DNA of 64,000 bases from Sphingobacteriales bacterium 39-19. GTDB taxonomy: Bacteria; Bacteroidota; Bacteroidia; Chitinophagales; Chitinophagaceae. Of this stretch, positions 13,588-16,785 are shown piece by piece. A model generated the notes under the pieces. It had not been told where the DNA came from. It saw only the letters and a list, made by a program, of their open reading frames with translations, and ran no database searches. The position numbers and the translations under genes were made by a program. Numbering within the stretch: the stretch's first letter is position 1; each line of letters opens with the position of its first letter. Location of the stretch: the NCBI GenBank assembly GCA_001898465.1, contig MKTX01000003.1, positions 1 through 64,000 of the forward strand, in the 5' to 3' direction.

Positions 13588-14847
13588 ATGCCTTATTTAT
13601 TTACCTCCGAATCTGTAAGTGAGGGACATCCTGATAAAGTTGCTGACCAGATCAGTGATGCTTTAATTGATCATTTCCTGGCCTTTGATCCGCAAAGTAA
13701 AGTAGCTTGCGAAACACTGGTAACTACAGGCCAGGTGATACTGGCCGGTGAAGTAAAAAGTAAAGCATACCTGGATGTTCAGGAAATAGCAAGAGCTGTT
13801 ATTCGTAAAATTGGATATACCAAAAGTGAATATATGTTTGAAGCTAACTCCTGCGGTATTTTATCTGCTATACATGAGCAATCATCTGATATTAACCAGG
13901 GCGTAGATAAAAAGAAAAAAGAAGAACAAGGCGCCGGTGACCAGGGTATGATGTTTGGCTATGCAACCAATGAAACCGAAAATTATATGCCCCTGGCTTT
14001 AGACCTTGCCCATTTTATATTAATTGAAATGGCGGCTTTACGCAGGGAAAATAAACAAATAAAATATTTACGCCCCGATGCCAAAAGCCAGGTTACCCTG
14101 GAATATAATGATCAAAACCAACCGGTGCGTATTGATGCCATCGTTGTTTCTACCCAGCATGATGATTTTGGAACAGATGAAACCATGCTGGCAAAAATTA
14201 AAAAAGATATTATCAATATTGTAATACCCCGGGTAAAAGCAAAATACCCTAAATACAATCATTTATTTAATAATAAAATTACCTATCACATAAACCCTAC
14301 CGGCAAGTTTGTAATTGGCGGGCCACATGGCGATACCGGCTTAACCGGTCGTAAAATTATTGTAGATACTTATGGCGGCAAAGGCGCACATGGCGGCGGC
14401 GCTTTTAGTGGTAAAGACCCCAGCAAGGTAGATCGCAGCGCCGCATATGCTACCCGCCATATCGCTAAAAACTTAGTGGCTGCCGGCCTTTGCGACGAAG
14501 TATTGGTACAGGTATCTTATGCCATTGGCGTGGCACAACCTACCAGTATAAATGTGAACACCTATGGTACTGCCAGGGTAAAACTTACAGATGGCCAAAT
14601 TGCAAAAAAGATCATGGGAATGAAATGTTTTGATATGCGCCCATTCTTTATTGAGCAACGGTTAAAACTACGGAACCCCATGTATAGCGAAACCGCAGCT
14701 TATGGGCATATGGGCCGTAAAAATGAAACTGTTGATAAAACATTTGTTTCTCCGGATGGTAAAACGATTAAGAAAAAAGTTGAACTCTTTACCTGGGAAA
14801 AGCTGGATGCCGTGAAAGACGTAAAAAAAGAATTTGGATTAAAATAA
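13588..14847 (+). CDS. metK: S-adenosylmethionine synthetase
   Basis: 419-aa cytoplasmic enzyme making S-adenosylmethionine from methionine and ATP. The start is set by the family N-terminus [17 protein letters not shown], which begins at 13588; a longer frame to 13525 would run through the promoter. Signatures are [12 protein letters not shown]-type (here [15 protein letters not shown]), [20 protein letters not shown] and [19 protein letters not shown]. It has its own promoter and terminator and is a single-gene unit. No SAM riboswitch is seen in the short leader. Confidence 0.97.
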
Positions 14848-14868: not shown

Positions 14869-14892
14869 GCCCAACATCGGTTGGGCTTTTTT
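14869..14892 (+). terminator. metK terminator
   Basis: GCCCAAC (14869-14875), loop ATCG, GTTGGGC (14880-14886), then six T. Confidence 0.88.
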
Positions 14893-14930: not shown

Positions 14931-15124
14931 AAAAAAAAGGGTCCCTCCGTAGAAACGGAGCGACCTTTTCGATTGCTTGCCATATGAAAAAAACTAAACA
15001 GCAAAATGCTGTAAAAAATATTTATCTTGCTTTTAGGTTATTAAAACCTGGCCTTTCCGATTGCTTTCCCTTTTCGATTGCCCGCTAATATGAAACCTGT
15101 ATTGTAAAACAATAAGCAAATGTA
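14931..15124 (-). ncRNA. Possible small RNA read against metK and the downstream gene
   Basis: This lies in the 390-base gene-free stretch 14848-15237. On the minus strand there is a -7-like TACATTTG (15124-15117). About 180 bases later comes a strong intrinsic terminator: a 10-bp stem with one C-C mismatch and loop AGAA-complement (14940-14965), followed by eight T (14938-14931). No minus-strand gene would use this terminator. Between them lie two 26-27-base direct repeats, a third partial copy, and small hairpins (ACAGC/GCTGT at 14998-15012; AGGTT/AACCT near 15035-15049). No matching -33 box is visible. The repeats could instead be a mobile intergenic element. Confidence 0.35.
14964..15095. 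repeat. Direct repeat pair with a third partial copy
   Basis: Copy 1 is at 14964-14989 and copy 2 at 15069-15095. Both begin CCTTTTCGATTGC and end ATATGAAA, differing at only a few middle bases. A partial copy, CCTTTCCGATTGC, lies at 15052-15064. Copies 1 and 2 start 105 bases apart. Confidence 0.75.
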
Positions 15125-15237
15125 CCTGGATGAAGGCATTTGTAAATACCAGATTATGAGCCAATATATGATGCTAAAACAATGCCTGTACCCTTATAAT
15201 GCAGTATAGATAAGAATTGTAGCCTATCTCTTTTATT

Positions 15238-16785
15238 ATGCCCAACCGATCTGCCGACATATTATTTCAACTTGTACATTCCCTGGAAAAGGCGGAAAAA
15301 AGGAATTTTAAACTTTATATAAAAAGAAATTCGGGGAACGCCGATCTAAAAATTATTGAACTCTTTGATGCCTTAGATAAATTGGAAGAGTATGATGAGA
15401 AGCTGCTCTTTAAAAAACTACGTTCTATAAAAAAACCGCAGTTGGCCAATGTAAAAAGTCATTTATATAAACAATTGCTGGCCAGCCTTAGGCTCATAAA
15501 AATTGCAGACAGTATAGATTTACAGCTACACGAACAGTTAGATTATGCAAAAATATTGTATAACAAAGGGCTCTACTACCAAAGCCTTAAAATATTAGAG
15601 AAAGCAAAGGAACTGGCCATTGCTAACAACCAGGACAGCCTGTTAATACCAGTTATTTCACTCGAAAAAAAAATAGAAACCCTGCATATAACCCGAAGTA
15701 TGGAAAACCGGGCAGAACAATTGAGTAGCGAAGCAGAAGAAATTTATAGAAAACGCAGGAATATTACACGGCTTTCGAACCTGGCTCTTAAAATGTATAG
15801 CTGGTATATTAAGTATGGCCATGCCAGGAATGAAAAAGAGGGCGCCGCTGTAAAACATTTTTTTACCACCAGCCTGCCAGCCGGGGCACAAAATTTTACA
15901 GGTTTTTACGAAAGATTGTACCTGTACCAAAGCTATTGCTGGCTTGCATTTATCCGGCAGGATTTTTTACAGTATTACCGATATACCCAAAAATGGGTAA
16001 ACCTGTTTACGGATCAACCCTTTATGATTGGGATAGAAACCGGCCACTATATTAAAGGCATGCATAACCTGATGAATGCCCATTTTGATTTACACAATTA
16101 TCAAAAATTTGATGAAACTTTACAGGAATTTATTCTCTTTTCAAAATCTAAAATTGCACAGCAGCATGATAACAACCGGGTACAAACTTTTATATACCTG
16201 GTAAGTGCAAAAATTAATAAACATATCAGTACCGGTACTTTTAAAAAGGGGTTGGAACTGGTACCCGATACAGAAAAAAAACTCGCCCAATATTCTTTAT
16301 ACTTAGATAGGCACCGTATCCTGGTGCTTAATTATAAAATAGCAACCTTGTATTTTGGAGCGGGAGATTATAGTACTTGTATTGATTACTTACATCGAAT
16401 CATTAATGGGGTAGATGATTTAAGGAGCGACTTGCAATGTTATTCCCGTTTATTACATTTAATTGCTCATTATGAATTAGGGAATACCATGATTATAGAA
16501 TCGTTGGTAAAATCGGTTTACCGCTACATGGCCAAAATGGATAATTTATCTATGATAGAAACCGAAGTATTGAAGTTTTTAGAAAGATCTTTCTTTATAC
16601 CGGTAAATAAAATGCAACCCCAGCTTACCCTTTTTTTGAAAAAAATAAAACACTATGAATTTAACCGTTTTGAAACCCGGGCATTTGCTTACCTGGATAT
16701 TGTTTCATGGCTGGAAAGTAAAGTAAACAATGAACCTCTTCAAAAAGTAATACATGATAAGTATTTAAAAAGTTCACGCCGTTAA
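15238..16785 (+). CDS. Helical-repeat protein of unknown function
   Basis: 515 aa, cytoplasmic by lack of a signal or membrane segment. I do not recognise a named family. The sequence is almost entirely amphipathic helix, in TPR-like pairs (for example YAKILYNKGLYYQSLKILEK and FGAGDYSTCIDYLHRIINGV), with a Lys/Arg-rich N-terminal region (RNFKLYIKRNSG) and aromatic clusters in the centre. That suggests a scaffold or protein-binding role. Its stop directly abuts the stop of the convergent LuxE-like gene, with no base between. Confidence 0.7.
   Translation: MPNRSADILFQLVHSLEKAEKRNFKLYIKRNSGNADLKIIELFDALDKLEEYDEKLLFKKLRSIKKPQLANVKSHLYKQLLASLRLIKIADSIDLQLHEQLDYAKILYNKGLYYQSLKILEKAKELAIANNQDSLLIPVISLEKKIETLHITRSMENRAEQLSSEAEEIYRKRRNITRLSNLALKMYSWYIKYGHARNEKEGAAVKHFFTTSLPAGAQNFTGFYERLYLYQSYCWLAFIRQDFLQYYRYTQKWVNLFTDQPFMIGIETGHYIKGMHNLMNAHFDLHNYQKFDETLQEFILFSKSKIAQQHDNNRVQTFIYLVSAKINKHISTGTFKKGLELVPDTEKKLAQYSLYLDRHRILVLNYKIATLYFGAGDYSTCIDYLHRIINGVDDLRSDLQCYSRLLHLIAHYELGNTMIIESLVKSVYRYMAKMDNLSMIETEVLKFLERSFFIPVNKMQPQLTLFLKKIKHYEFNRFETRAFAYLDIVSWLESKVNNEPLQKVIHDKYLKSSRR

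Follow-up and report, generated by a model that had tools for sequence, protein, structure and literature searches.

Judging from its sequence and that of its relatives, the gap next to metK very likely holds the gene of a small RNA whose family has so far gone unlisted. On the minus strand of this gap, which lies in a window of 64,000 nucleotides (the whole stretch of DNA that was analysed), a TAnnTTTG promoter is followed by a GCAAGCAAUCG-type block in three copies and by a terminator. The core of the repeated block is GCARGCAAUCG, and its last copy adjoins the terminator hairpin, whose UUCY loop is fixed. This 3' tail (CATATRGCAAGCAATCG plus the hairpin with the UUCY loop) is common to stand-alone RNAs, to the 3' UTRs of a lipoprotein of about 60 amino acids and to the ends of phage genes. 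The presence of the tail at phage gene ends suggests an unknown RNA-based control system that phages may tap.

Anatomy of the predicted RNA

The initial annotation proposed a repeat-bearing small RNA in a 390-base gap beside metK, and the gap has that length, running from the metK stop at 14847 to the start of the next plus-strand open reading frame at 15238. Its features are as follows.

14931 to 15112, minus strand: stand-alone noncoding RNA, predicted transcript of ~180 nt, start placed by the -12 to -5 rule for TAnnTTTG
14931 to 14938, minus strand: T8 tract of the terminator
14939 to 14965, minus strand: terminator hairpin with a UUCU tetraloop closed by U-A; the stem co-varies in relatives
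14964 to 14990, minus strand: 3' block TTTTCATATGGCAAGCAATCGAAAAGG, conserved in Chitinophagaceae and phages
14998 to 15012, minus strand: small hairpin ACAGCATTTTGCTGT, terminator-like by the scanner
15052 to 15067, minus strand: middle degenerate block copy AAAGCAATCGGAAAGG
15068 to 15095, minus strand: 5' degenerate block copy TTTCATATTAGCGGGCAATCGAAAAGGG
15117 to 15124, minus strand: -7 box TACATTTG (consensus from the available text of PMC9723704)
15146 to 15155, minus strand: promoter box at -31 to -22, consensus AAGTTGNTTT, degenerate in the window copy
15164 to 15178, minus strand: promoter box at -54 to -40, consensus TTNNNCATNATNAAA
15197 to 15218, minus strand: promoter box at -94 to -73, weak in the window copy
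15238 to 16785, plus strand: divergent all-helical TPR-like gene, distant BT2802-family relative

The -7 box stands about 180 bases from the terminator, as first described. In Flavobacterium, TAnnTTTG is the -7 box and is located at -12 to -5 (PMC9723704, in the text available), so the RNA would start near 15112 and have a length of ~180 nt. The hairpin and T8 tract of the minus-strand terminator are present, but the stem, first given as 10 bp, carries one G.G mismatch among its ten positions (14939-14965, minus strand, GGTCGCTCCG-TTTCTA-CGGAGGGACC); this mismatch is probably why the site is absent from the list of a simple terminator scanner. The sole minus-strand terminator-like site that the scanner lists is the hairpin at 15012-14998, followed by the T-rich TTAGTTTTTT. 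It lies inside the proposed RNA, and an alternative, earlier 3' end is thus possible. On the plus strand, metK has a terminator-like site of its own at 14869-14886 (GCCCAACATCGGTTGGGC TTTTTT), so metK and the RNA gene would converge with separate terminators.

The two long direct repeats of the initial annotation were found at 14964-14990 and 15068-15095, but they align only with a one-base gap; the ungapped repeat family is 18 nt long, at 83-89% identity. The third, partial copy is also there (15052-15067). The threefold GCAATCG held up well: CGATTGC occurs three times in the gap, and none of 2000 mononucleotide shuffles of the gap has it even twice. The centroid fold of the window RNA is mostly open and comprises the terminator and two small hairpins; the fold is more stable than that of shuffles (z -2.1). 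Hairpins before the block are in modest excess over shuffles in relatives, a stem of at least 6 within 70 nt before the block being found in 16 of 48 copies from loci L001-L054 (7.0 in shuffles) and in 25 of 107 later non-lipoprotein loci (11.8 in shuffles).

The predicted gene has its own promoter and terminator, both read from the sequence, and no conserved reading frame. A coding frame, ATG GCA AGC AAT CG., was considered and rejected: many copies have ATA, and after CG the letters differ or a stop comes early. Rfam 15 holds no family that the predicted RNA matches at the gathering threshold, and a relaxed scan of the gap gave sub-threshold hits only. At that threshold, tRNA and tmRNA were the only matches for the window, 19 loci of the genus, 20 further loci mostly from other genera and 13 viral loci. 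No description of the family was found among the literature matches listed, and those listed for a string search are unrelated by title.

Distribution of the family

With the gap as query, relatives were found in 21 of 58 other genomes searched (22 of 59 with the genome's own), all of the same genus. Among the matches listed from other genomes, 43 of 44 cover the block and the terminator and one lies elsewhere.

A profile of the RNA 3' end (model R1), built from an alignment of 26 copies, matched 75 of 93 genomes of the genus including the genome's own, with at most nine matches per genome. In a sample of the order it matched 70 of 298 genomes: 66 of 85 in Chitinophagaceae and 4 of 213 outside, the latter weakly (E 0.002-0.008). 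In a sample of the phylum it matched 18 of 395 genomes, 11 of 14 in Chitinophagaceae and 7 of 381 outside. None of these seven outside-family matches has the intact block (best ungapped agreement 12-14 of 20) or a UUCU or UUCC loop closed by U-A. In two loci outside the family, the letters before the stem do partly resemble the block (L293, ATATTGCAAGCAA; L294, gapped, TTTCATATAGAGCATTCCTTAAAG), which makes a remote relative outside Chitinophagaceae possible. A 20-mer search of named genomes returned at least 120 stretches; the 80 matches listed bear the labels of Chitinophagaceae or its genera, of Chitinophagales, of broader Bacteroidetes or Sphingobacteriales groups and, in one case, of a metagenome-assembled genome called Flavobacterium.

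Terminator stem, block and loop

The terminator stem shows compensatory changes. In the 26-copy alignment, 98.3% of stem cells are paired and five of the nine pairs have changed on both sides, with 25 stem cells affected in this way; neither the 500 shuffles nor the slid versions reach the covariation score of the real alignment. RNAalifold, run on 18 stand-alone RNAs, predicts the terminator as the sole structure.

Loop and T-tail were counted on 226 copies, 204 from hosts and 22 viral, that differ from one another within the 120 nt surrounding the block. Among the 202 host copies scored, 176 have a UUCU or UUCC loop with a closing U-A pair; among the 22 viral copies, 15 have UUCU or GUCU with the same closing pair. 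T-tails follow in 149 of 202 host copies versus 9 of 22 viral copies. The pattern-fetched loci were selected by the 20-mer and later by the near-exact block, so that conservation of the block among them is itself selected; the hairpin was not selected for. A terminator stem that co-varies while block and loop stay fixed supports an RNA, and fits it better than a DNA repeat.

Copies of the block within the RNA

We scored as an internal copy any upstream sequence that agrees with the RNA's own block in at least 16 of 25 letters. Loci L001-L054 come from the genus and the genome itself, and those from L055 on mostly from other genera, with some from the same genus. Such copies occur in 39 of 48 RNAs of the first set (0.8 in shuffles), in only 35 of 103 non-lipoprotein copies of the second (1.6 in shuffles) and in 1 of 22 viral copies. 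Their best-kept part is GCARGCAATCGTTA; conservation of CATAT is for the most part limited to the 3' block. The letters after the core also tend to change together: where the 3' block is followed by AA, the internal copies have AA, GA or AG in 20 of 21 cases, and where it is followed by TT, they have a T-containing pair in 52 of 62 (AA or AG in four, another pair in six). This joint change would fit one common partner, or gene conversion.

Promoter design and the divergent gene

Promoters were aligned on TAnnTTTG in 36 copies from L001-L054 and 41 from L055 on, after a loose filter that asked for TTG at -28, an upstream CATnAT box, or both. Boxes lie at fixed distances: AA at -94, TTT at -75, TTnnnCATnATnAAA at -54 to -40 and AAnTTGnTTT at -31 to -22. 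A score over 21 positions reached at least 14 in 54 of 76 copies with the divergent helical-repeat gene and in 38 of 72 other host copies, as against none of 44 lipoprotein copies, none of 22 viral copies and no shuffle. As these very data had served to choose the 21 positions, it is the contrast between classes that counts as evidence. The window copy agrees at 16 of the 21 positions. The stand-alone RNAs thus appear to be one gene family with one promoter design. The promoter pattern itself is too loose to define a regulon: in 11 genomes it found 38 sites against 22 in the control, with one exact site, at an RNA locus, and a one-mismatch site (L262) that has no block downstream.

Inverted repeats whose arms differ between copies and still match were seen across the -7 box, e.g., in L012, L016, L017 and L008. 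Of 108 copies, 13 reach a score of 9 or more (0.7 in shuffles), and the window copy is not among the best 45 of the 108. These repeats may be an operator, an RNA hairpin or a start site further upstream.

The helical-repeat gene is divergent from 76 of 204 host copies in several genera, its start codon lying 139-271 nt from the block in 66 of them and further away in 10. It is absent from 107 copies with room for it, 42 of which are lipoprotein copies; the other 21 had no room. Its product is predicted to be all-helical (pLDDT 85.8). It has no Pfam match, a sequence search of the PDB gave nothing significant, and a fold search gave weak TPR-like matches only, none at E <= 0.001. Over its full length the protein is distantly related to the BT2802 'ribose utilization' family (136 bits against a cut-off of 550), and we take BT2802 to be RusR. 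RusR is the regulator of the Rus locus BT2803-2809, according to the available text of PMC12596196. We speculate that the divergent gene may encode a regulator or partner of the RNA.

The initial annotation also considered a REP-like or other mobile intergenic repeat, which would have no function. Several copies do occur per genome, some in tandem 330-970 nt apart. Against this stand the compensatory stem changes, the fixed spacing of the promoter boxes and the helical-repeat gene keeping its place beside 66 of the 204 host copies across several named genera. The own genome, moreover, does not have the many dispersed copies of such a repeat: the 351-base gap query has one match there, and the tail has three at E <= 0.01 and five at E <= 1, so that the scattering that would have told against an RNA gene comes down to one full copy and two weaker tail relatives (E 0.001-0.007). 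We consider a mobile repeat very unlikely.

Three contexts of the tail

Context classes were counted on the 196 host copies with enough upstream sequence. A copy was called stand-alone if it has a TAnnTTTR-type box and neither a lipoprotein gene nor a long gene ends shortly before it; this holds for 45 of 48 in L001-L054 and 76 of 148 from L055 on. In the latter set, a lipoprotein of 48-73 amino acids of the MKK...C type ends 3-79 nt upstream of 44 of 148 copies. Copies after a long gene are few (4 of 148, and 1 of 48 in the first set), and 24 of 148 and 2 of 48, respectively, fall outside these classes. The lipoprotein at L108 comes near the PG1828 family model (48.2 bits, cut-off 50), and that of the own genome scores 26.8 bits against the same cut-off.

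Both weaker tail copies of the own genome lie in such surroundings. A partial one follows a gene for a 64-amino-acid lipoprotein (contig C17, L022, E 0.0014), and another follows a SusD gene and precedes NanA- and NanM-like genes (contig C15, L023, E 0.0066). In L023 (1508-1600; C15:161966-162033), an 11-nt perfect complement of the block, TTGCTATATGA, lies 55 nt past it, before the nanA-like gene, so the block and the downstream sequence could form an alternative hairpin. By eye, several lipoprotein 3' UTRs (e.g., L150, L068, L114) have a hairpin ahead of the block whose loop is GCUUGC; GCUUGC is complementary to the block's GCAAGC, which raises the idea of a pseudoknot, and it may be just a stable CUUG tetraloop.

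The viral set comprises 26 contigs with 22 distinct copies. In 11 of the 22 the block begins 0-20 nt past the stop of an open frame of at least 60 codons, and in L202 it follows a phage tmRNA, L209 and L212 having the same flanks. A tRNA, always on the same strand, lies within 700 nt upstream or 600 nt downstream of 8 of the 22 copies (7 loci), versus 3 of 204 host copies. These host-labelled three are possibly prophage pieces: L149 lies 10 nt after a same-strand tRNA-Cys, and L129 and L159 have a same-strand tRNA-Met 190-214 nt downstream, like phage L203 (211 nt). In the phages L204, L206 and L226, only 4-5 nt separate the end of the hairpin from a tRNA, and there is no T-run. Processing of the tRNA, and not termination, would then create the 3' end, and the module would not be just a terminator. 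The stretch before the block in L204 (8860-9095) and L206 (minus strand) looks like a further phage noncoding RNA; by eye, it begins with AGTTCTTTGAA-like letters in both phages, and its ends, which precede the block and the tRNA, are complementary over a long range (TTATTGTTG...CAACAACC).

Twenty viral records searched whole have one strong match each, except the L206 record with two; any further matches are weak. Genes for SbcC-like proteins (two), an exonuclease and replication initiation support the phage origin of four contigs, and of 10 viral-contig proteins tested, three have no family and three belong to families of mostly unknown function. No metK relatives were found in the viral contigs. 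Two phage queries against the named phages of INPHARED gave no match beyond one of 20 bases (E 0.7).

Phages are known in general to integrate at the ends of small RNA genes, and the tail in phages might accordingly mark an attachment site at the 3' end of the RNA gene. This we find hardly credible, as phage stems differ from host stems and many keep the loop, and as the copies follow ordinary phage genes and flank tRNAs. The tail might instead be purely a stability or processing element of 3' ends, acting as an exonuclease block or a cleavage site by tRNAs and having no part in regulation, with the stand-alone RNA as a by-product or reservoir. Its place at RNA 3' ends in all three main contexts, close behind stops and near same-strand tRNAs in phages, would agree with this. 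Yet nine matches at most per genome are far fewer than the mRNAs that need ends, and the conserved promoter and the extra copies near the RNA 5' end would be left unexplained, so we hold it to be unlikely.

The repeat-bearing small RNA of the initial annotation stands in so far as promoter boxes and internal copies recur as a set with block and terminator, and the stem co-varies. The same tail also ends a lipoprotein mRNA and follows susD and phage genes, however, so the element would not be solely a small RNA gene.

Possible functions of the 3' module

A fixed unpaired block and a fixed loop on a stem free to vary, at the 3' ends of unrelated RNAs (stand-alone RNAs, lipoprotein mRNAs, phage genes and a phage tmRNA), look like a recognition module. 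We infer transcription, a partner and decoy action from the anatomy, conservation, covariation, distribution and contexts read in the sequences. A sigma-A type promoter, preceded by conserved boxes, would drive leftward transcription of the stand-alone RNA of ~180 nt, most of which would be unpaired. Block and UUCY loop would together make up a 3'-end module, and the partner that recognises their sequence specifically would most likely be an RNA-binding protein. With several sites and one promoter design, the stand-alone RNA might serve this putative partner as a multi-site ligand or decoy, and lipoprotein 3' UTRs and phage transcripts would offer it single sites; phages would then probably use a host factor to stabilise, process or protect RNA ends. 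Our preferred reading, in which the stand-alone RNA serves as multi-site ligand or decoy of a protein recognising the block and loop, we give a little less than an even chance. A wider version is possible but distinctly speculative: an RNA end-tag system of the whole Chitinophagaceae, in which a putative factor binds the block and UUCY hairpin, a promoter-controlled multi-site decoy RNA opposes it, and phages tag the ends of mRNA, tmRNA and tRNA-linked RNAs, some by RNase P at an adjacent tRNA and without a terminator.

Alternatively, the RNA may be a base-pairing regulator like FopS or GibS. The block would then be a seed for pairing with mRNAs, e.g., near start codons, and its repetition would add avidity; lipoprotein 3' UTRs and phage 3' ends would be sources of small RNAs with the same seed, or serve as such themselves. 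We rate this proposal as a whole as a serious contender, on the doubtful side. It would suit the FopS-like architecture, i.e., multicopy, single-stranded, with a terminator and found in phages (PMC11697453, available text), the RNAalifold result, in which nothing but the terminator folds, and the variable block position, which is G or A, either of which pairs with U. In the own genome, complements of the 20-nt block gave two non-self sites at 3 mismatches versus none for the reversed control, and complements of a 12-mer (at most one mismatch) gave 76 sites versus 51. The two 20-nt sites are unremarkable, however; inspection of 20 of the 76 sites, 19 of these being non-self, showed no open reading frame of at least 30 codons that starts there; and a G-U tolerant 13-mer found one non-self site versus five in the control. 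Conservation over 20 nt plus the loop also exceeds what a seed needs. These searches target long pairing, and short seeds of 7-9 nt lie below them.

Antisense pairing at start codons was considered specifically, as the reverse complement of the block (CCATATGAAAA) reads like a start region, and was dropped with the absence of an open reading frame start at the 19 non-self 12-mer sites. Local pairing was likewise rejected as a general feature: complements of the block of at least 9 nt within 150 nt number none upstream (4.4 in shuffles) and six downstream (1.8 in shuffles), three of which reach 11 nt (L023, L090, L173).

Comparison with known RNAs

To our knowledge, few small RNAs of Bacteroidota are known outside Bacteroides and Flavobacterium. 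The closest known kind appears to be FopS, by analogy and as far as its available description goes; the comparison with FopS and GibS is one of architecture. FopS has 12-15 copies per genome in the Bacteroides species named, is single-stranded with a terminator and occurs in a phage; it binds RbpB, represses susC translation and has a conserved R1 seed at its 5' end (PMC11697453, available text). Like FopS and GibS, the RNA described here is multicopy in one Bacteroidota family and mostly unpaired, with a Rho-independent terminator, a sigma-A type promoter and occurrence in phages. In contrast to the 5'-end seed of FopS, the conserved block adjoins the terminator here and is often repeated, whereas the available text on FopS makes no mention of internal repeats (PMC11697453). 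Another difference from FopS as there described is that lipoprotein mRNAs, phage genes, a tmRNA and tRNA-linked RNAs share the tail at their ends.

Decoy RNAs of the CsrB/RsmX type have many sites, with a GGA motif in hairpin loops. They share with our RNA the repeated unpaired copies of a short motif on one molecule, but the motif is another one, and there are only 2-3 copies here. The Hfq-binding 3' module of enterobacterial small RNAs and 3'-UTR-derived small RNAs similarly place a terminator module on stand-alone and mRNA-derived RNAs; here, however, a specific 20-nt sequence and the loop are conserved and not only a hairpin and U-tail, and T-tails are absent in 13 of 22 phage copies. Rfp18 and other small RNAs of Flavobacterium psychrophilum are likewise from Bacteroidota and have a TAnnTTTG -7 box, but Rfp18 is a genus-level RNA of strong structure, and the available text mentions no shared block (PMC9723704).

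A multicopy RNA present through most of Chitinophagaceae, with its tail on phage RNAs, provides a short RNA bait for the putative partner, and the shared tail a prediction on how phages of this family handle host RNA metabolism. In the order sample, 19 of the 85 Chitinophagaceae genomes have no match to model R1, among them all five members of genus g39; contrasting the gene content of genomes with and without a match would offer a way to the gene of the putative partner.
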